This document shows positions 3,180 through 27,627 of a DNA stretch of 42,637 nt, piece by piece. Both the position numbers and the translations under genes were made by a program. Below the pieces are notes generated by a model that worked only from the letters and a program-made list of their open reading frames with translations, had not been told where the DNA came from and searched no databases. Source of the DNA: [Chlorobium] sp. 445 (GTDB lineage Bacteria; Bacteroidota; Chlorobiia; Chlorobiales; Thermochlorobacteraceae); assembly GCA_002763895.1 (NCBI GenBank), contig NSLH01000023.1:1-42637 (forward strand). Reading direction: 5' to 3'. How positions within the stretch are numbered: position 1 is the first letter of the stretch; every line of letters starts with the position of its first letter.

Positions 3180-4202
3180 CTATCTTGTGAGCTCGCCACG
3201 CAAGTTTTGCTCAATTTGGCGCCTGATGCGCTGTAAGGTCAGCGATGAATTGCCCAAAAGATAAAAAAGTTTTGCCAGCGTTGCTTCTGTCGTCATATCG
3301 TATCCAGAGAGCACTCCTGCCTCTTTGAGCCGATAGCCTCCAACATAACTTTGCATGTCGACTCGCCCCTCAAGACACTGCGAGACATTGACGATATAGA
3401 CGCCACGTTGTGTGGCTTCCCGAAAGACTTCAATCAAATCTGGATTGTCTGGAGCATTGCCCACGCCAAAGGTTTTTAGCACGAGCCCCTCAATCGGAGC
3501 ACGCAAGAAGTTTTGCACCACTTCTGGCGAGATACCCGGAAAGAGTGTCATCACGCCAATGCGCACCTGCTCTAACGACTTAACTTTGAACTTATTTTTT
3601 GGCTTAGGCAAAATGTTTTTCCAGTTGAGCCTAATGCTAACACCAGCAGTTGCCAGCGGTGGGTAGTTTGGTGATTCAAACGCACTAAACCCGCTGGCGC
3701 TTACCTTCACTGCGCGATTACCTCGCAAGAGCTTACCATTGAAATACAAACCTACTTCTGGAATCTGAAAGTTTGCTGCAAGGAACAACGCACCGATAAG
3801 ATTTTCGCGTCCATCAGAACGCAGCTCCATAAGTGGTAATTGTGCTCCTGTCAAAATGACGCTTTTGCTGAGGTTTTCGAGCATAAAGGAGAGTGCAGAT
3901 GCTGTGTAAGCCATCGTGTCTGTACCATGCAGAATAATGAATCCATCATAATCGTCGTAATGCGCCTCAATATCTCGTGCAATTGCTACCCACTGGTGCG
4001 GTGTCATATTAGCTGAATCTAAGAGCGGCTCATATTCATGGATTGTTACTTCAGGCAGTTCTGGTCGTGCAAACAGCGAGAGCGCTCGAAGTTGCTCTTC
4101 TAAGAAACCTTTTTCAGGTGCATAGCCCTTCTGCGTTTGTTTCATGCCAATTGTGCCACCTGTGTAGGCGACATAGATGCGCTTTCTTGACTTATGTCGC
4201 AC
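3180..4202 (-). CDS. ansA: Cytoplasmic type I L-asparaginase
   Basis: A 340-residue asparaginase hydrolysing L-asparagine to aspartate and ammonia. Both catalytic segments are visible: YTGGTIGM with the nucleophile threonine at about T14, and HGTDTMAYT with T94-D95. ILTGAQLPL and the ELRSDGRENLIGAL segment are also typical of the cytoplasmic bacterial enzyme. There is no signal peptide, as expected for type I. The start codon is GTG at 4202, 33 nt after the stop of the upstream amidohydrolase, so the genes are probably co-transcribed. In an operon with two exported amidohydrolases it may take part in using Asn- or isoAsp-containing peptides; this is an inference. The family call is secure. 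Confidence 0.93.
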   Translation of the reverse strand: MRHKSRKRIYVAYTGGTIGMKQTQKGYAPEKGFLEEQLRALSLFARPELPEVTIHEYEPLLDSANMTPHQWVAIARDIEAHYDDYDGFIILHGTDTMAYTASALSFMLENLSKSVILTGAQLPLMELRSDGRENLIGALFLAANFQIPEVGLYFNGKLLRGNRAVKVSASGFSAFESPNYPPLATAGVSIRLNWKNILPKPKNKFKVKSLEQVRIGVMTLFPGISPEVVQNFLRAPIEGLVLKTFGVGNAPDNPDLIEVFREATQRGVYIVNVSQCLEGRVDMQSYVGGYRLKEAGVLSGYDMTTEATLAKLFYLLGNSSLTLQRIRRQIEQNLRGELTR

Positions 4203-4235: not shown

Positions 4236-5438
4236 TCAATTGCACTGTTCTTTGACGATTTTGCCATTGATTATCACCGTGCACACATGCGAGGTATATT
4301 CAAATGGATCGCCGTCGTAGAGCACAAGGTCAGCATCCTTGCCTTTTTCAAGTGAGCCCACGCGCTTTGCAATCCCTAAAATTTCTGCGGCATCAATTGT
4401 GATTGTACGCAAAGCCTCTTCAAAACTTAGTCCATTTGCGGCAGCTACTGCTGCTTCGAAGAGCACGACACGCGTCTTTGGAACATAGGCTTCATAGCCG
4501 GACTGCAGCGCAACTTTAATTCCAGCTTTGCGCAATTTTGCGGCTGTCTCAAATGAGGCGTTTTCACCATCGCCGACATTGCGCATCATGGGTGGATGCA
4601 CAATCACTGGTACACCTGCTTTTTTGATGTCATCAATGACAAGGTAGGCTTCTGCAGCACCATCGAGCACAAGTTTGAAGCCAAACTCTTTTTGCAAGCG
4701 CAGTGCTGCAAGAATGTCCGTCGCTCGATGCGCCGTAAAGAGCGCCGGCAGCTTGCCCGATAGCACATCGTTTAGAACTTCAAGGCGCAAATCGCGCGCA
4801 GGTCGTTTGCTTGGGTCTTTGGCTTGCATGCGCTTGGCATAATCCTGTGCTTTGAGAAATTCTTCACGCAACATGGCTACACCTTTAGCTCGCGTACCCG
4901 GCTTTTTGTAATTCTGACTAACCGATGAGCCGAGTGTAAAGGCAACCATAGCAGGCGTTTGCACAATAGCTTCGGATACCGTGTTCGCATCCGTTTTAAC
5001 AATCATGGTCTGTCCACTTGAGAGTGCACCCGGTCCATGTCCTGTATGCACGGTTGTTACGCCAAAGTCGCGCAGCCACTTCACAAGCCGCTCTTCAGCG
5101 TTGTAAGCATCCTCAGCACGCAGCTCTGGCTGAATGGCTTCAGAGAGTTCGAGTTGGTCTTGGTCGTGATTGTAGTTCAAAATACCTGCCAGACCGACGA
5201 CCGAATGTGCGTCAATGAGTCCGGGCGTAACCACTTTGGCTCTGAGCATGCGATAGCCACTTGGAATCGGGAGATTGACGCCCACAGCTTCGATTTTGCC
5301 ATTTTTAATGAGCACCACACCATTTTTCAGCGGCGCTCCTGCCATAGTGTAGACAGCTTCGCCTTGCACGGCAATCTGCGCTGTGGCTTCTGCAAGCAGT
5401 GCCAGCCAAAGTCCGAGAGTGAAAATCCTTGTTTTCAT
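4236..5438 (-). CDS. Exported amidohydrolase-family protein with degenerate metal site
   Basis: A 400-residue protein with a signal peptide (MKTRIFTLGLWLALLAEATA, then Q) and the overall imidazolonepropionase-like amidohydrolase fold: an N-terminal beta-sandwich, the motif PGLIDAHSVVG, and the C-terminal EKGKDADLVLYDGDPFE. Compared with its neighbour (5435-6769), key ligands are changed. The metal HxH is HSV (second His lost), the LHH segment is LDG, and the HTDD segment with the catalytic Asp is QSGYE. TAHRATDI is kept. Its ATG overlaps the upstream stop by four bases (ATGA) and follows a strong GGGAGGAG ribosome-binding site, so the two proteins are probably made together. It could be a non-catalytic partner or have a different chemistry. 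The fold is clear; function is uncertain. Confidence 0.85.
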   Translation of the reverse strand: MKTRIFTLGLWLALLAEATAQIAVQGEAVYTMAGAPLKNGVVLIKNGKIEAVGVNLPIPSGYRMLRAKVVTPGLIDAHSVVGLAGILNYNHDQDQLELSEAIQPELRAEDAYNAEERLVKWLRDFGVTTVHTGHGPGALSSGQTMIVKTDANTVSEAIVQTPAMVAFTLGSSVSQNYKKPGTRAKGVAMLREEFLKAQDYAKRMQAKDPSKRPARDLRLEVLNDVLSGKLPALFTAHRATDILAALRLQKEFGFKLVLDGAAEAYLVIDDIKKAGVPVIVHPPMMRNVGDGENASFETAAKLRKAGIKVALQSGYEAYVPKTRVVLFEAAVAAANGLSFEEALRTITIDAAEILGIAKRVGSLEKGKDADLVLYDGDPFEYTSHVCTVIINGKIVKEQCN

Positions 5439-6769
5439 CTTTCTCCTCCCATTTCCGATTGACCGTTATCGTCCAAGGCATCTGCACCGCGATAGACGCT
5501 ATGCCCACCGACGGCATACTTGTAGTCGTCAGGATTTGAGCGGTCGTAGACTTTTTGTCCTTCCACCCAAGTCTGCAGCACGTGTGTATAGACACTGAAG
5601 GGGTCACCAGAGAGAATGATAAAATCAGCATCCTTACCTTTTTCAAGTGAGCCAATGCGATCTTGCAAATCCAGCATGCGTGCGCCTGCAAGGGTCAAGG
5701 CTTCTAAGGCTTTTTTGCGTGACATACCTGCGCGCACGGCTAAACCTGCTGAACGCAAAAAGAGTCGTGAATCGGTAATGCTATCATCGGTATGAAACGC
5801 GACATCTACACCGGCTTCTTCCAACACACGACCATTTTCAAAGCGAATATCGACCGCCTCTAACTTTCCGCCTGGGGAATCCAGCACAATGATTGAGCAA
5901 GGGGCTTTTGCAGCGGCAATTTCTTTGGCGACTTTCCAGGCTTCGCTGACATGATGCAAGACCACACGAAAACCAAATTCTTTGGCAAGACGCAACACTG
6001 TAAGAATATCATCATGCCGGTGCGTGTGATGATGCACGATGCGCTTGCCCTCCAGCACTTGCAGCAGACACTCCATATCAAGGTCGCGCTTCGGCAATTT
6101 TTCTTTGTCATTTCCAGCCGCTTTGATTTTCTCACGATAATCTTGGGCTTTGAGATAGATGATGCGCACGACGGATGCCGACTTGCCACGTGTGCCTGTA
6201 AAGGGCGCTGGACGTAGTGGATTAGTGCCATTTGCCATTTTGAGTCCACCTGCAATCTCATTCGTTGCATCTTTGACGAAGAGCATGTCTTCGATCGAGT
6301 TTGCGTCTTTGCGCAGTTTGAGATAGACAGTCTGTCCGCTCATCAAGTGTCCAGAGCCCGGCATGATGTTGACGGTTGTAATGCCCCCGACCAAGGCTTT
6401 TTTGAAGTTTGTTGCTCTTGGGTCAATCGCGTCTAAAATGCGCACACTGGGATGCAAGGTGCTCGAGGCATCGCCGCCATCACCACGCCCAATGTGCGAA
6501 TGTGTATCGACTAAGCCGGGCATAATCACTTTGCCCTCAACATTGTGTTCCACAGCACCCGATGGCACTGGCACTTCACCGGATTTGCCGACCGCCACAA
6601 TTTTCCCACCTTGCACCACTAACACCCCATTTTCAATCGGCTCACCGACAATTGGGTAAATCAATGCTCCACGAAAAACCTGCGCCGTCTCTTGCGCACG
6701 CAGAGGAACTGCGAAGAAAAGTATCAGACATAACACGAGGGAGAAGCGACAAGTTGTGTTGTTTATCAT
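5435..6769 (-). CDS. Exported amidohydrolase (imidazolonepropionase-like metal hydrolase)
   Basis: A 444-residue enzyme of the amidohydrolase superfamily. I choose the ATG at 6769 because it starts a good signal peptide (MINNTTCRFSLVLCLILFFA, then VPLRAQ); the frame is open 46 codons further upstream but that part is not signal-like. Metal-site elements are intact: LVDTHSHIG (HxH), VHHHTHRHDDI, VVLHHVSEAW and AFHTDDSIT with the catalytic Asp. The C-terminus has the usual EKGKDADFIILSGDPFS. The family hydrolyses amide or ester bonds in cyclic or peptide-like substrates; the actual substrate is not evident. It is the first gene of a four-gene minus-strand run and overlaps the second, degenerate amidohydrolase by four bases. 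Confidence 0.88.
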   Translation of the reverse strand: MINNTTCRFSLVLCLILFFAVPLRAQETAQVFRGALIYPIVGEPIENGVLVVQGGKIVAVGKSGEVPVPSGAVEHNVEGKVIMPGLVDTHSHIGRGDGGDASSTLHPSVRILDAIDPRATNFKKALVGGITTVNIMPGSGHLMSGQTVYLKLRKDANSIEDMLFVKDATNEIAGGLKMANGTNPLRPAPFTGTRGKSASVVRIIYLKAQDYREKIKAAGNDKEKLPKRDLDMECLLQVLEGKRIVHHHTHRHDDILTVLRLAKEFGFRVVLHHVSEAWKVAKEIAAAKAPCSIIVLDSPGGKLEAVDIRFENGRVLEEAGVDVAFHTDDSITDSRLFLRSAGLAVRAGMSRKKALEALTLAGARMLDLQDRIGSLEKGKDADFIILSGDPFSVYTHVLQTWVEGQKVYDRSNPDDYKYAVGGHSVYRGADALDDNGQSEMGGER

Positions 6770-8853: not shown

Positions 8854-8968
8854 AATTTGCCGTTTTTTTGTTTTGCCAATCCGACTTACGTTTAGCGTGT
8901 ATAGCACTTTTGCGCTTAAAAAACTTCGTAACCAAACCTTTTGCTGTATGAGAGGCTCTCGTTCTTCT

Positions 8969-10114
8969 ATGACCCAAATCATTGCACAAAAACCTGCTCT
9001 TTGGCTACTGCTGTTTGCATTTGCTGTATCGGCATGCGCAAAACCTGAGTATGGCGTAAAACTTTCTGCTTTGCCTGCTGGCGTGCAAATCCCTGAGAAC
9101 TTGAAAGAAAAACTGCGCTATGATGCCGCTACACAAACACTCTTTGTTAAAGATCACTTAACTGCCACTGAAAAGGAAGAATTGCTCAAACTCTCGGAGG
9201 ATAAAAGCTATCGCCGTGCGGTTCAAGGTCTTTACGAATACAATCAGCCTGAAGAAACAACTCAGGTCGGGGAAATGACCATCGGTGTAGAACCTGCTTT
9301 GATGCCGATTGCGCAAATTCTTGCCAAGGCTTTTAATGAAAAGCGTCCGAATGCAAAGATTTTGCTTGAGCCGATGTCCACCAATGAAGCCATGACAGAG
9401 CTTGCAAATGGTCGGCTACGTTTTGCGCTGACAATTCGCGATAGTTCGACGGCGGAAGGCAGTTTATTTCGTGCTAACAAAATTCCTGTGCTGCGTCGCA
9501 TCTCTGCACTAGATGCTTTTTGTTTTATTGTCAATCCTCAAAATCCGACTACAGAGCTTGGCTTGCAGCAGCTCAAATTCTTACTCAGCGGCACAGCAAA
9601 GGATTGGTCGGAAGTTGATAAAAGTCGCAAACCTACGCCCGTGAGTGTTTTCATCAGTAATGATGGACGTGCTGACTATTTGCGTGATAGTGTTTTGGCA
9701 GGAAAATTCTCAGACAGTGTTGTCGTATGCACGTCCAAAGAGGACATGATTGAGGCTGTAAGACGCACGCCCGGCGCACTCGGCTATCTGACAATGCTCG
9801 ATATCAAAGATGTTATTGGCGTCAAGCAAGAGGGCGAAAAGTTTGTGGTTGACTTAAAAGACACGACACGGTTTAAGGTGATGGCAATTAAAGGCGCAGA
9901 ATTTGAGTCGCCAACCGCCTTACCTTTGCAAGGCTATGTTGCTAACGGTCAATATCCGTTGAGTTACAGGATATACTACTTTCAGCGCACACAAGGTCAG
10001 TTACCTGCAGGATTTTCTGGCTTTCTGCAATTTGGCACGTCCGGTGAAGGTCAAGAAGTCTTTTTCAAGAATGGGCTTGTGCCTTTCACTCAAATCATTG
10101 TTGTCAAGCAATAA
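8969..10114 (+). CDS. PstS-like periplasmic binding lipoprotein, divergent (paralogue 1)
   Basis: A 381-residue protein starting at the ATG at 8969, chosen because it gives a lipoprotein signal (MTQIIAQKPALWLLLFAFA, lipobox VSAC with C23). An upstream in-frame ATG at 8873 would put the signal too far inside. After an N-terminal segment of about 80 residues comes a PBP-like domain similar in order to the pstS product nearby: TIGVEPALMPIAQILAKAF, FCFIVNPQNPTTELGLQQLKF, LLSGTAKDWSEV, and a C-terminal GFSGFLQFGTSGEGQEVFF. The phosphate-binding loops of PstS (GSDT, GGGSGTG, SSGTYE) are not kept; the last one reads ISNDGRADYL. It may bind another ligand or act as a sensor. It is 11 nt before a second PstS-like gene. 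Confidence 0.8.
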   Translation: MTQIIAQKPALWLLLFAFAVSACAKPEYGVKLSALPAGVQIPENLKEKLRYDAATQTLFVKDHLTATEKEELLKLSEDKSYRRAVQGLYEYNQPEETTQVGEMTIGVEPALMPIAQILAKAFNEKRPNAKILLEPMSTNEAMTELANGRLRFALTIRDSSTAEGSLFRANKIPVLRRISALDAFCFIVNPQNPTTELGLQQLKFLLSGTAKDWSEVDKSRKPTPVSVFISNDGRADYLRDSVLAGKFSDSVVVCTSKEDMIEAVRRTPGALGYLTMLDIKDVIGVKQEGEKFVVDLKDTTRFKVMAIKGAEFESPTALPLQGYVANGQYPLSYRIYYFQRTQGQLPAGFSGFLQFGTSGEGQEVFFKNGLVPFTQIIVVKQ

Positions 10115-10125
10115 GAATTTTCCTT

Positions 10126-11061
10126 ATGTCGCCATACGTTCTGCGCTGGTTGCTTTTTTGTTTAGGCGTATTGCTCTTTCATCTCTTGTGTCAAGGCTGT
10201 TCTGGCTCTGACGGCAACAAGCGCGAGTCTACAACCGAAGGCGTACTTGAGTATGTCGTTGATGAATCACTTGCCCCTGCACTGCTACCTCAGCAGCAAG
10301 AGTTCATGCGCATCTGGAAGACGGCATCGCTTAGCAGTACCGCTCTTGAGACGCGTGTCGCTATACAACAGTTGCTTGAGCGCAAGGCACGGCTGATTAT
10401 CATCAATCGTAACTTCAAGCCCGATGAACTCGAAGCTATCGAAAAAGTTGGTTTGAAGCTCGAAAAAAAGCCCTGTGGGGTCGATGGGGTATGTTTTCTT
10501 GTTCATCCTGAAAATCCTGTTCGAGCTTTGCGCCTTGAGCAGTTGCGCGATGTGCTCTCTGGCAAAATCACAAACTGGTCGGCGCTCGGTGGCAAAGATG
10601 CACCGATTCAACTTTTCATTACAACGCCTAACGATGGAATGCGCGACCTTTTGCAAGATTCCCTGCTCAAATCGGTTGAGTTTTCAAAGTCGGCTTACCC
10701 ATGCACCTCGTTTGCCCAGATGCGTGCAGCGATGACACGCACCAAACATTTTTTGGCATACACAGGCACAGCGCATGCACGCCCTGCACTTGATACCAAA
10801 CACATGGATACCACAGCATTCAAAGTGCTGGCGCTTGCCGCAGATTCGGCAAATGCAGAATTTGTCATGCCATATCAAGCCAATGTCTATGAAGGTAAGT
10901 ATCCTTTCGCGCACTTTGTCTATGTCGTCTATCCTCTGGGCGAAAAACTGCCGCTGGGCTTTGCTTCTTTTCTCTTGCGCGAAGGTCAGCAAATCTTTGT
11001 TCGCAATGGCTACGCGCCGTATAAGTTACCGGTGAGAATTGTCAATTTCCGAGAAGATTAA
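10126..11061 (+). CDS. PstS-like periplasmic binding lipoprotein, divergent (paralogue 2)
   Basis: A 311-residue lipoprotein with a signal segment and lipobox LCQGC (MSPYVLRWLLFCLGVLLFHL then LCQGCSGS). The body is a shortened PBP-like domain: CFLVHPENPVRALRLEQL, RDVLSGKITNWSALGGKD and FITTPNDGMRDLLQDSLL align with VHESNPVAKLSISQ, IYTGKIQNWKELG and YGRENSSGTYEFF of the canonical pstS product downstream. As in paralogue 1, the SSGT phosphate loop is lost (here TPNDGM). It follows paralogue 1 after 11 nt and is followed by a receiver-like gene after 14 nt, suggesting one operon. Function is unknown; a phosphate-sensing or ligand-relay role is only a guess. Confidence 0.8.
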   Translation: MSPYVLRWLLFCLGVLLFHLLCQGCSGSDGNKRESTTEGVLEYVVDESLAPALLPQQQEFMRIWKTASLSSTALETRVAIQQLLERKARLIIINRNFKPDELEAIEKVGLKLEKKPCGVDGVCFLVHPENPVRALRLEQLRDVLSGKITNWSALGGKDAPIQLFITTPNDGMRDLLQDSLLKSVEFSKSAYPCTSFAQMRAAMTRTKHFLAYTGTAHARPALDTKHMDTTAFKVLALAADSANAEFVMPYQANVYEGKYPFAHFVYVVYPLGEKLPLGFASFLLREGQQIFVRNGYAPYKLPVRIVNFRED

Positions 11062-13776: not shown

Positions 13777-14294
13777 TGCATCGATGGCTTTTTGTGCTCA
13801 GCATAAGCGTTGTGCTCACGCTGAATTTTTCTTCGTGCAGCCAAGGGCTTGAGCCTGAATACCGCAGCACGGATCCGAATGCGCGCGGACGTTTTCGCGG
13901 TACAATTACATTCAGAAATTTTCCACCACCCGTGCCCGATAGCACTCGCCCTGATAGCTTGCGCGAACTTTTGCTGGTTGTCTATCGCACAGCGCCAAGC
14001 GTAGAGACGTTTCTTGATCTGAATACGCTTGCCGACACGATTTTTCTGCGACCGTTTTATGTGCCACACTTGCGCTATGAACGCGAGATTGCCGCTGGCA
14101 CTTACGAGTATGTTGCTGTTGCACAACTTTTTCGTGGCTTTGCACTCAATCCTAACGATTGGCGTCCAGTCGGGGTTTATGGCGGTAGCCGTGAAAATCC
14201 TCGTGGGCGACCGCTCATTGTGCGTCCAAATGCACTGACTGATAGTGTCGATATCTTCGTTGATTTTTGGAATCCTTTGCCTTTCCCACGCTAG
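13776..14294 (+). CDS. Lipoprotein of unknown function
   Basis: A 172-residue protein with a lipoprotein signal (MHRWLFVLSISVVLTLNF, then lipobox FSSC and SQGLEPEY). The mature part is rich in beta-forming and proline residues (GRFRGTITFRNFPPPVPDS, LLLVVYRTAP, FYVPHLRYEREIAAGTYEYV). The pattern suggests an Ig-like or transthyretin-like beta-sandwich exported to the outer membrane. I do not recognise a named family. Its ATG overlaps the nadC stop by one base, so it is translationally coupled to nadC, and pstS starts 86 nt downstream. Function is unknown. Confidence 0.7.
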   Translation: MHRWLFVLSISVVLTLNFSSCSQGLEPEYRSTDPNARGRFRGTITFRNFPPPVPDSTRPDSLRELLLVVYRTAPSVETFLDLNTLADTIFLRPFYVPHLRYEREIAAGTYEYVAVAQLFRGFALNPNDWRPVGVYGGSRENPRGRPLIVRPNALTDSVDIFVDFWNPLPFPR

Positions 14295-14380
14295 CGTACA
14301 GCGTTAAATTTTTGTTAAGACGATTTATTTTTGCTGTAGGTGCGCTAAGTTTACGCACTTTCTTAGCGATGCAAAACCTT

Positions 14381-15247
14381 ATGAAGTCGCCGCTTTTTCT
14401 ACTTAGTCTTCTTTTTTTTCTCTACAGCTGCACTAGTCGTGAGCAAGTCATTACAGTGCGCGGCTCTGACACGATGGTTGCCCTAGGGCAAAAGTGGGCA
14501 GAAGTTTATATGAATAAGTTCCCAGAGGAAACGGTTCAGGTCAATGGTGGCGGCAGTGGCACAGGCATTGCTGCGCTGATTAACCGCACTGCCGATATTT
14601 GTCAATCATCACGACCGATGAAAGCAAGTGAGCACAAGAAAATCCGCGAAAAATTTGGACGAGATGTCATTGAAATTCCCGTCGCAAAAGATGGTATTGT
14701 GATCTATGTGCACGAAAGCAACCCAGTCGCCAAGCTTTCTATTTCTCAAATTCGAAAAATTTACACAGGCAAAATTCAGAACTGGAAAGAACTCGGCTGG
14801 GAAGATAAACGCATGATTGTCTATGGACGAGAGAACAGTTCGGGCACCTATGAATTTTTCAAGAAGGCAGTGCTCGAAGGTGAAGACTTCGTTGACTATG
14901 TTCAAACTCTGCCCGGTACCGCTGCTATTGTTAATGCTGTCAGCAAAGATAAGTACGCTATCGGGTACGGCGGCAATGCGTACTCACAAGGCATTCGACT
15001 TGTACCAGTCAGTCGCACCGATAGTTCGGAAGCCGTAGAAGCCAATGAAGCCACCGTTACCAGCGGGGAATATCCGATTTCACGCGACTTGTATTTTTAT
15101 CTTGCCAAAGAGCCAAGTAATGCACTTGCACGCTTCATTGAGTGGGTACTGAGCGACGAAGCACAAGAGATTGTTACGGCACAAGGTTATTTTCCTATAA
15201 AAACTTCAAAGACACATACAAAGCCAACCACTTCTCTTACTCACTGA
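14381..15247 (+). CDS. pstS: Phosphate ABC transporter substrate-binding lipoprotein PstS
   Basis: A 288-residue phosphate-binding lipoprotein. I start at ATG 14381 (MKSPLFLLSLLFFL, lipobox LYSC); ATG 14369 is four codons upstream and also possible, while the longer in-frame start at 14267 overlaps the previous gene and is unlikely. The phosphate-binding loops are intact: VRGSDTMVALGQKW, VNGGGSGTGIAAL, SSRPMK and YGRENSSGTYEFF. The protein captures phosphate in the periplasm and delivers it to PstCA. Its stop codon overlaps the pstC ATG (TGATG), so translation is coupled. Expression would normally be phosphate-regulated; no Pho box was found by eye. Confidence 0.94.
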   Translation: MKSPLFLLSLLFFLYSCTSREQVITVRGSDTMVALGQKWAEVYMNKFPEETVQVNGGGSGTGIAALINRTADICQSSRPMKASEHKKIREKFGRDVIEIPVAKDGIVIYVHESNPVAKLSISQIRKIYTGKIQNWKELGWEDKRMIVYGRENSSGTYEFFKKAVLEGEDFVDYVQTLPGTAAIVNAVSKDKYAIGYGGNAYSQGIRLVPVSRTDSSEAVEANEATVTSGEYPISRDLYFYLAKEPSNALARFIEWVLSDEAQEIVTAQGYFPIKTSKTHTKPTTSLTH

Positions 15248-25389: not shown

Positions 25390-27534
25390 TTACCTTTTGC
25401 GAGATGCCGGCTTTTTGGTGTCTGGTTTCGGCTCGACTTGCATCTTTGGTTTTTCGCCTGTGAGTTCTTCTATGAGCCGTTCTGCACGATAGATATATTT
25501 GAGCGCCGCAATAATGCCGCCAGCATGCACCGCCACTGCACGATTGCTCTCTTGCGTGTAGATAAACGAGCCGGGCAGACTCTCGATATTACCATCAAAG
25601 ATCAGACCCACCGCTTCAAGATTTTTGTTGATGACAGCACTGCCGCTGTTGCCGCCAATGATATCATTCGTTGTAACAAAGTTGAGCGGCACAGGTAGCA
25701 AGTCCATCGGTGGTGTCTCCCATCTCTTCGGCAAATTCCAAGGATATTTTTTGTTATGCGAGTAGTAGCGATCGTAGAGTCCAAAAAATGTGGTTTTGGC
25801 GGGTGCTTCGGTGCCATTGTATTCATAGCCTTTGACCACCCCATCGTTGATGCGCAGCGAGAAAGTCGCATCTGGTGGTGTCGATTCGCCATACACATCA
25901 AAGAAGAGTTTTGCTAAGCGTGCACGCAAGCCATCGGCTTTAGCAGAGAGTTCAAAGTTTTTGCGGTTTGCATTGATAAAGCGAGGATAGGCAATCTTTA
26001 TCAGTTGCAGCAAGGGGTCCTGTGTTGCGCTAATTTCTTGTGCACTTTTCATGACCAAGTCTTGCAAAAACTTCGGGTCATAGAGCTTAGAGGATGAGGC
26101 TAAGCGTTTTGCAGCATCTGGAATTGAACTGCCCTGCAATGCCGTTTTCACATACTCGTCGTTTTCGCCTAAGTAATCACGCGCTGTGGCAAGATGAACT
26201 TCAAGCAGCGCAGTCTCAAGCGTCATGTCTGCTGGCTCGGCTGAAAGCAACAGCATTTGTGTTTGTGCTACTTGTGCTGTATCGCCGAGCTCTTTGAGGC
26301 GTGCCAGTCGCATCAGCAGAAAAGCGGTTTGCAGTCCCTCGCCTTGCGGATTGAGCCCAAATCGTTCAGGAAAAAGTTTGCGCATCTCGGCGTATAATGC
26401 GCTCATATCATCCCAGAGTTTTTCTTCATTTTTCAGTGCAGGATTTGCGGCGACTTTGGCACGAAACTCTCGCTCGAAGGCTCTTTTGCGCGCAAACAGA
26501 TACGGGTCTTGCAACCCACGCAACTGTCCTGAAAAGGCTTTGATGCTATTTTCGTAGCTAAAAATGACATTGAGAATGCTATCGCTCTTTGCGGTTTTGT
26601 TATAGTCTTTGAGAATAGCTGAACGCGCCTTTAAAAATCGAAGTTGAGCAGGCAGAAGCACATCGCGGTTAAATTCCAATTGCGCCATTGTGCTCAGTCG
26701 CTCGGTGCTACCGGGATTGCCCACAACGAAAACTGGTTCATTTTCTTTAACCCCATCGGTATTGAATTTGTAGTAATCAGGGGTTTTGCAAGGGTTACCA
26801 TTTTCGTCATAAGCGCGCAGAAATGCTACATCGAGCGCATAACGCGGGTAGGTAAAATTATCAGGATCGCCGCCGAAGTAACCGAGCTGCAGTTCTGGCA
26901 GAAATACCAGTCGAACATCGGAGTAGCGCTTGAAGCCATAGAGCGAATACTTTCCACCGCTATAAAAGGTAATGGCTTGAATGTTGAGGTCGCGCCACTC
27001 TGGTTTTTCAGCGTATTCTTGTTTGAGTTGCTCCAAGATTTTTTCGCGCAGGGCTATGCGCTCATTGTCATCCTTTGCTTTTGCCAATTCCGCTTGCACG
27101 CGTGCAGTGACATCCTCGATTTTTTCGAGCTGATCGACAAACAGACCGGGCACAGGGCGCTCTTCTGCGCGCGAAGCAGCATAAAATCCATTCTCGTTGA
27201 AATTCTCCCCTTTCCTCTCAACCTGCGTGCCGATTTCTCGCGCCACGTGATGATTGGTCATAATTAAGCCATTTGGCGACACAAATGACCCTGTACCGCC
27301 GACTTCGGTAAAACGCAGGGCAGCGCGGCGAGCACGCGTAAACCAGGCTTCATCTGGACGAAATCCGTATTCTTTCTCAAAAAAATCAGCGGGTGGCTTG
27401 TCAAATGTCCACATTTTACCATTATCAAACTTCCCCGCTTTGACTGTATCCGGATTGAATGAAAGTTGTGCAAAGGTTTGCGAGAGCGCGGTAAGAAAAA
27501 ATAGCAAAGAAAGAACGGTTTTATAGCGCCACAT
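25390..27534 (-). CDS. S46 family dipeptidyl-peptidase (DPP7/DPP11 type), exported
   Basis: A 714-residue serine peptidase. I choose the ATG at 27534 because it starts a clear signal peptide (MWRYKTVLSLLFFLTALSQT, then FAQ); the frame is open 20 codons further upstream. The catalytic parts are TNHHVAREIG (His95/His96) and DIIGGNSGSAVIN with the nucleophile S630. The residue 18 after this serine is glycine (G648, in FDGN), as in DPP7-type enzymes with hydrophobic P1 preference, rather than the Arg of DPP11. Such enzymes release dipeptides from peptides in the periplasm and are typical of Bacteroidota that feed on protein. It follows the GWxTD gene by 93 nt and precedes pyruvate kinase. Confidence 0.93.
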   Translation of the reverse strand: MWRYKTVLSLLFFLTALSQTFAQLSFNPDTVKAGKFDNGKMWTFDKPPADFFEKEYGFRPDEAWFTRARRAALRFTEVGGTGSFVSPNGLIMTNHHVAREIGTQVERKGENFNENGFYAASRAEERPVPGLFVDQLEKIEDVTARVQAELAKAKDDNERIALREKILEQLKQEYAEKPEWRDLNIQAITFYSGGKYSLYGFKRYSDVRLVFLPELQLGYFGGDPDNFTYPRYALDVAFLRAYDENGNPCKTPDYYKFNTDGVKENEPVFVVGNPGSTERLSTMAQLEFNRDVLLPAQLRFLKARSAILKDYNKTAKSDSILNVIFSYENSIKAFSGQLRGLQDPYLFARKRAFEREFRAKVAANPALKNEEKLWDDMSALYAEMRKLFPERFGLNPQGEGLQTAFLLMRLARLKELGDTAQVAQTQMLLLSAEPADMTLETALLEVHLATARDYLGENDEYVKTALQGSSIPDAAKRLASSSKLYDPKFLQDLVMKSAQEISATQDPLLQLIKIAYPRFINANRKNFELSAKADGLRARLAKLFFDVYGESTPPDATFSLRINDGVVKGYEYNGTEAPAKTTFFGLYDRYYSHNKKYPWNLPKRWETPPMDLLPVPLNFVTTNDIIGGNSGSAVINKNLEAVGLIFDGNIESLPGSFIYTQESNRAVAVHAGGIIAALKYIYRAERLIEELTGEKPKMQVEPKPDTKKPASRKR

Positions 27535-27627
27535 ATTGTAAGACGATTTTTTGTTTGCTGGAGACCGCATGTAATATCTTGTTTTTCGCTGCAAGAAAAA
27601 AATTACCGTATCGTTATGCTTCTTGCT

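Follow-up and report, generated by a model that had tools for sequence, protein, structure and literature searches.

Two overlapping genes in the window, that is, the whole 42,637-nucleotide stretch of [Chlorobium] sp. 445 DNA analysed here, probably encode a single heteromeric exported amidohydrolase, composed of a metal-bearing catalytic subunit and an obligate paralogous subunit that has lost its metal site. The metal-less twin is probably the partner subunit of a live enzyme, since bacteria of at least seven phyla keep the pairing, sometimes in fused form. This family is a clear example in which a metalloenzyme was duplicated, one copy was stripped of its metal site and both copies stayed together, the intact and metal-less copies being re-joined covalently several times. 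Because of this succession of duplication, metal-site loss, joint retention and refusion, it provides a testable model for the dependence of an enzyme on a dead paralogue.

The upstream gene (5435-6769, minus strand) encodes a protein of 444 aa with a hydrophobic N-terminus, MINNTTCRFSLVLCLILFFAVPLRAQ, and a full binuclear-type metal site, hereafter the intact protein. The downstream gene (4236-5438, minus strand) encodes a protein of 400 aa with a signal-peptide-like N-terminus, MKTRIFTLGLWLALLAEATAQ, and an amidohydrolase fold devoid of metal ligands, hereafter the metal-less protein. The initial annotation had claimed a four-base overlap of the two genes and a strong translation site on the second one, and both were found: stop and start share an ATGA (5435-5438, minus strand), an arrangement of translational coupling, and a Shine-Dalgarno sequence, GGGAGGAG, can be read 4 nt before the second ATG (5443-5450, minus strand). 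The proteins are paralogues, with 35% identity over 418 aligned columns (E 5e-67), and both passed the Pfam cut-offs of PF01979 (Amidohydro_1) and PF07969 (Amidohydro_3). A hydrophobic N-terminus was present in 75/78 metal-less and 70/74 intact relatives, and the two proteins are apparently exported, as judged from N-terminal hydrophobicity and not from a dedicated signal-peptide predictor.

The metal site of amidohydrolases is built from an HxH motif on strand 1, a Lys or Glu on strand 4, a His on each of strands 5 and 6, and an Asp on strand 8. All six positions are occupied in the intact protein, and each is kept in 87 or 88 of 88 intact proteins. They are H90 and H92 of the strand-1 HSH motif (6494-6502; 87/88 each), K177 of strand 4, the candidate carboxylated bridging Lys, also present in TM0814 (6239-6241; 87/88), H248 of strand 5 (6026-6028; 88/88), H273 of strand 6 (5951-5953; 87/88) and D328 of strand 8 (5786-5788; 88/88), all on the minus strand. 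We take these residues to be the ligands on the basis of alignment to TM0814 and of what is known of the superfamily. TM0814 of Thermotoga maritima (PDB 3ooq) is the closest solved structure to both proteins; the profile search of solved structures found nothing close to either clade and gave 3ooq as the nearest relative, with an E-value of 2.4e-60 for the intact protein, the model of which had a pLDDT of 86.7. No description of the function of TM0814 was found in the open-access literature searched.

TM0814 keeps all six ligands (HHKHHD), unlike the metal-less protein, wherein the sole survivor of the superfamily set is the first His of HxH, itself an Arg in 17 of 90 clade members. At this place the protein has H78-S-V80 (5199-5207, minus strand), and the clade pattern is H/R-x-V/T (H in 73 and R in 17 at position 78, V in 56 and T in 25 at position 80; n=90). 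On strand 6, D259-G260 (4659-4664, minus strand) replaces His-His, with D in 85/90 and position 260 mostly G (81/90) or S. The HTDD of strand 8 is replaced by QSGYExYVPK (Q312-K321; 4476-4505, minus strand), of which E316, Y318, V319 and P320 are found in 90/90 sequences and K321 in 88/90. The opposition of HSH, LHH and HTDD to HSV, LDG and QSGYE had been read correctly at the outset. The list of lost ligands drawn from it was right as far as it went, but it overlooked two losses: the strand-4 Lys, K177, corresponds to A166 or T168 according to the alignment used, and the strand-5 His, H248, is replaced by T235 (4734-4736, minus strand; Thr in 85/90).

The metal-less clade has acquired invariant residues of its own. 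A clade-specific H131-T-G-H134 stretch lies at the mouth of strand 2 (5037-5048, minus strand; each His in 88/90), where the intact partner has N and P, and H281, after strand 7 (4596-4598, minus strand), is present in 90/90. The AlphaFold2 model of the metal-less protein, built with 77 homologues, reached a mean pLDDT of 91.5 and a pTM of 0.90. Its best solved match with Foldseek was 3ooq (TM-score 0.89, 32-33% identity), also its nearest solved relative by profile search. Together with the Pfam matches, this agrees with the common fold that had been proposed for the two proteins, the superfamily fold being a distorted TIM barrel with an N/C-terminal beta domain. The model match, the profile searches and the missing ligands thus indicate that the fold was kept and the metal site lost.

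The initial annotation had suggested testing whether the HSV/LDG pattern marks a distinct clade standing always next to an intact paralogue, and this is what we observed in every sample. In Bacteroidota, all 86 metal-less genes, from 85 of 394 genomes and including one locus cut by a contig end, lay directly downstream of an intact gene on the same strand. Conversely, a search with the intact profile gave 88 matches, only two of which fell outside such pairs: an open frame of 310 aa that matches in part (G150) and an intact/metal-less chimera (G204). An intact partner lay directly upstream of, or was fused to, 19/19 metal-less genes in Acidobacteriota and 25/25 in Planctomycetota, four of the latter as one-chain fusions. 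A GTDB-wide scan yielded 80 loci, and the intact partner was upstream or fused in all 78 having upstream sequence; in the other two, the metal-less open reading frame starts at the contig end. These loci span Bacteroidota and Rhodothermota-like groups, Calditrichota, Acidobacteriota, Planctomycetota, Verrucomicrobiota and Pseudomonadota. The pairing is conserved in at least seven bacterial phyla, the counts being based on E-value thresholds that separated both clades cleanly in the samples seen, and on relatives many of which are metagenome-assembled genomes. A stop/start overlap was available in 44/78 relatives (-4 in 34, -1 in 10 more).

The relatives found place the window in a Chloroherpetonaceae/Thermochlorobacter-like genome. 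Within the family and order of the window, metal-less orthologues always adjoin an intact gene and carry the same substituted motifs. None of the sampled genomes of another family of the same order, the Chlorobiaceae-like f4, matched either gene, although both are kept in the family of the window.

Further support for a joint function of the two proteins came from natural one-chain fusions. In four Planctomycetota genomes, an intact and a metal-less domain are fused in one chain of 851-933 aa (L140-L143). Other loci hold triads in the order metal-less, intact, metal-less, encoded either by three separate genes (L133, L134), by a fusion of ~1000-1130 aa plus one gene (L135, L137, L139), or by a single chain of 1493 aa (L149), to which a chain of 1474 aa (L138) is similar; metal-less+intact and metal-less+intact+metal-less chains both occur in triads. 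In every fusion or triad, exactly one domain has HHKHHD at the six ligand positions, unlike its partner domains. The triad loci, each combining an intact domain with two metal-less ones, form a wider related system. Two further proteins of the intact type, TM0814 and L146, stand outside the pair, fusion and triad groups.

We analysed the origin of the two clades with two trees, one of 74 domains and a more careful one of 69 (35 metal-less, 34 intact) from which all motif segments had been removed. In both, a single branch parts all metal-less domains from all intact ones, in agreement with the metal-less proteins being a distinct clade; in the 69-domain tree, this branch had a support of 99/96 and was present in 98% of bootstrap trees. 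Ligand columns were considered as a possible cause of the split and were rejected, as the tree rebuilt without motif columns gave the same result. The two halves are broadly mirror images, pair and fusion forms being sisters on both sides, and TM0814 falls on the intact side. Since one branch separates the clades even with motif columns removed, the metal loss probably happened once. Although the tree is unrooted, we read the change as a loss and not a gain of the metal site, because the superfamily is metal-dependent. Independent loss in the triads was rejected (AU p 0.005 for holding triad domains together). Independent loss in the pair+fusion group was borderline (AU p 0.052), and a single origin is therefore likely, yet unproven for every lineage. 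A mirror-tree comparison gave a correlation of r 0.75 between intact and metal-less trees, against a maximum of 0.14 in 1000 permutations, the species tree being uncontrolled. This signal agrees with joint inheritance of the two genes.

We compared the pair with three known systems and found that the present proteins belong to none of them. In Rhodococcus wratislaviensis, AibH1H2 is a heterotetramer of two 28%-identical paralogues of the amidohydrolase superfamily encoded in one gene cluster, one paralogue being catalytic and the other, AibH1, probably non-catalytic but essential; AibH1 still binds Zn, and the two form a diiron monooxygenase that has ferredoxin partners (PMC7782822). The likeness lies in adjacent paralogous amidohydrolase genes, one of which has a catalytic-type site; unlike in AibH1H2, the second protein here is without the metal ligand set. 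Ferredoxin or reductase genes of the AibH1H2 type were neither recurrent in the 80 loci nor recognised among the open reading frames flanking the window pair. In the aspartate transcarbamoylase of Pseudomonas aeruginosa, the pseudo-dihydroorotase (pDHO) is an inactive subunit of amidohydrolase fold needed for the activity of its partner (PMC7053772). That partner is, however, an unrelated transcarbamoylase and not an intact paralogue, and the amidohydrolase family differs from that of the present pair. Nor did we find signs of a dihydroorotase identity or of a conserved aspartate transcarbamoylase gene alongside: the pyrC_multi score was far below cut-off and no neighbour besides the pair was recurrent in the 80 loci. 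The best functional and architectural analogy is offered by the M16B heterodimeric peptidases, which consist of metal-bearing and metal-less paralogous chains and exist as the one-chain fused versions FusC and PqqL (PMC12731061). Their fold and family are unrelated, and both halves are required there for a working active site. No earlier description of the pair was found in the open-access literature searched, outside which most subscription papers lie; superfamily precedents do exist, in AibH1H2 and pseudo-dihydroorotase.

In the heteromeric enzyme that we favour, the first gene would encode the metal-dependent catalytic subunit, relying on HxH, Lys, His, His and Asp, and the second the obligate metal-less paralogous subunit, which would fold in the same way and carry out no metal hydrolysis. 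The two chains would bind each other, and the metal-less chain may stabilise or activate the catalytic chain, or aid its substrate binding. The remodelled pocket (H131, H134, D259, H281, E316, K321) may bind a ligand or contact the partner. Of the traits of a pseudoenzyme partner subunit, the metal-less protein shows ligand loss, purifying selection and genetic association with an intact paralogue, which makes it a candidate for this kind. As for the substrate, an amide or dipeptide-like compound is only a guess, drawn by analogy with the nearest characterised amidohydrolases, Xaa-Pro and Arg/Lys carboxypeptidases. Because profile searches label both proteins alike, many proteins named 'amidohydrolase' are probably not metal hydrolases, and activity tests on the intact protein by itself may fail or give misleading results. 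The family would also help to account for apparently exported hydrolases of a widespread class.

The initial annotation had proposed a non-catalytic subunit or new chemistry. This is supported as an either/or. Eleven positions show conservation of at least 90% within each clade yet with different residues, and 10 of these sit at the mouth of the barrel, on its C-terminal side, as compared with just 8 of the 51 shared invariant positions, an enrichment that is indicative since the mouth segments were hand-drawn with the residue lists in view. They include (metal-less/intact) H131/N134, H134/P137, T235/H248, E316/D328 and K321/D333. The old pocket has thus been remodelled and then preserved in pairs encoded by two genes. 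Fusions retain the G[FY]E-x-YVPK stretch but not H131, H134, D259 and H281. As this set is not kept in the Planctomycetota fusions, the pocket appears inessential to the general role of the metal-less protein, which argues against a shared alternative catalytic site as the basis of that role. A tentative elaboration, to which we grant a modest chance, is that an ancient lineage of amidohydrolase-fold proteins lost its metals one time and turned the pocket into a metal-free site, for catalysis or sensing, that works only in a permanent complex with the intact paralogue, and that fused pairs and 1:2 triads came later.

It is rather unlikely, in our opinion, that the second gene encodes an enzyme in its own right, performing new, metal-free chemistry in the old pocket before or after the intact hydrolase of a short pathway, the pairing and fusion then reflecting pathway coupling and not a common holoenzyme. 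Two enzymes acting in one pathway would likewise be compatible with fusion and adjacency, and the mouth residues H131, H134, T235, R286, E316 and K321 are conserved yet unlike those of the intact partner; with H281 and E316 both at 90/90, the pocket does not show the drift expected of a pure scaffold. However, the metal-less domains of fusions and triads are without this residue set, which leaves no lineage-wide alternative catalytic site, and the fixed gene order and overlapping start fit subunits at least equally well.

The nearly invariant residues could also be viewed as ligands of a metal site of new geometry (for example H131, H134, H281, D259 and E316), and in the model these candidates do map to the C-terminal ends of strands 2, 6, 7 and 8. 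We nonetheless hold a metalloenzyme of this kind to be improbable: strands 2 and 7 lie far apart in a TIM barrel, the candidate residues are absent in the fused relatives, and the site has no close solved precedent.

Beyond the pair, no neighbour was recurrent across the 80 loci. In the window, an asparaginase gene (3180-4202, minus strand) follows the metal-less gene at a distance of 33 bp, and a cation-diffusion-facilitator-like gene comes next. This order is kept in the genus of the window (G001, G002) but was not seen next to the pair in G003, G004, G005 and G010, and the asparaginase was thus discarded as a conserved third gene, no such cluster recurring over the 80 loci. Its presence close behind the pair, in the genus of the window and not in the wider system, is compatible with two proteins that never touch, exported hydrolase-like proteins with related substrates that hitch-hike in one operon. 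Yet, across the 80 loci it is the pair and no other neighbour that is conserved, and covalent fusions recur, so that we give this explanation very little credit.

Finally, between close relatives, the metal-less gene had a dN/dS of about 0.03-0.14 and the intact gene one of about 0.04-0.17, taking only pairs with computable dS and leaving out those with saturated dS. Purifying selection acts on the metal-less protein, whose gene is not a product of chance or decay. A functionless decaying duplicate, as the loss of nearly all hydrolytic ligands might have suggested, is contradicted by these values, by full-length open reading frames throughout the samples, by retention in at least seven phyla and by the invariant clade-specific residues, and virtually nothing speaks for it any longer. 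In-frame stops were reported in some relatives; in the three loci inspected (L126, L129, L130), they fall where the match ends on its C-terminal side.

Two unusual loci were noticed along the way. The chimera mentioned above (L152:3429-4775, G204:C1) is a single gene such as recombination between the tandem genes would produce, 72% identical to intact proteins in its N-terminal half and 65% identical to metal-less proteins in its C-terminal half; it keeps the ligands of strands 1, 4 and 5, and those of strands 6 and 8 are absent. L136 (G403:C385:8500-13040) holds a run of amidohydrolase-like domains with very long branches, none of which has the full ligand set, and no intact domain lies within the stretch fetched. 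Elsewhere in the window, a Peptidase S46 of the dipeptidyl peptidase type (25390-27594, minus strand) shows that another peptide-processing protein is encoded nearby. On the plus strand, three phosphate-binding-protein-like genes (8873-11061 and 14267-15247), the first two being paralogues with 30% identity, are grouped closely upstream of apparent PstC and PstA permease genes.
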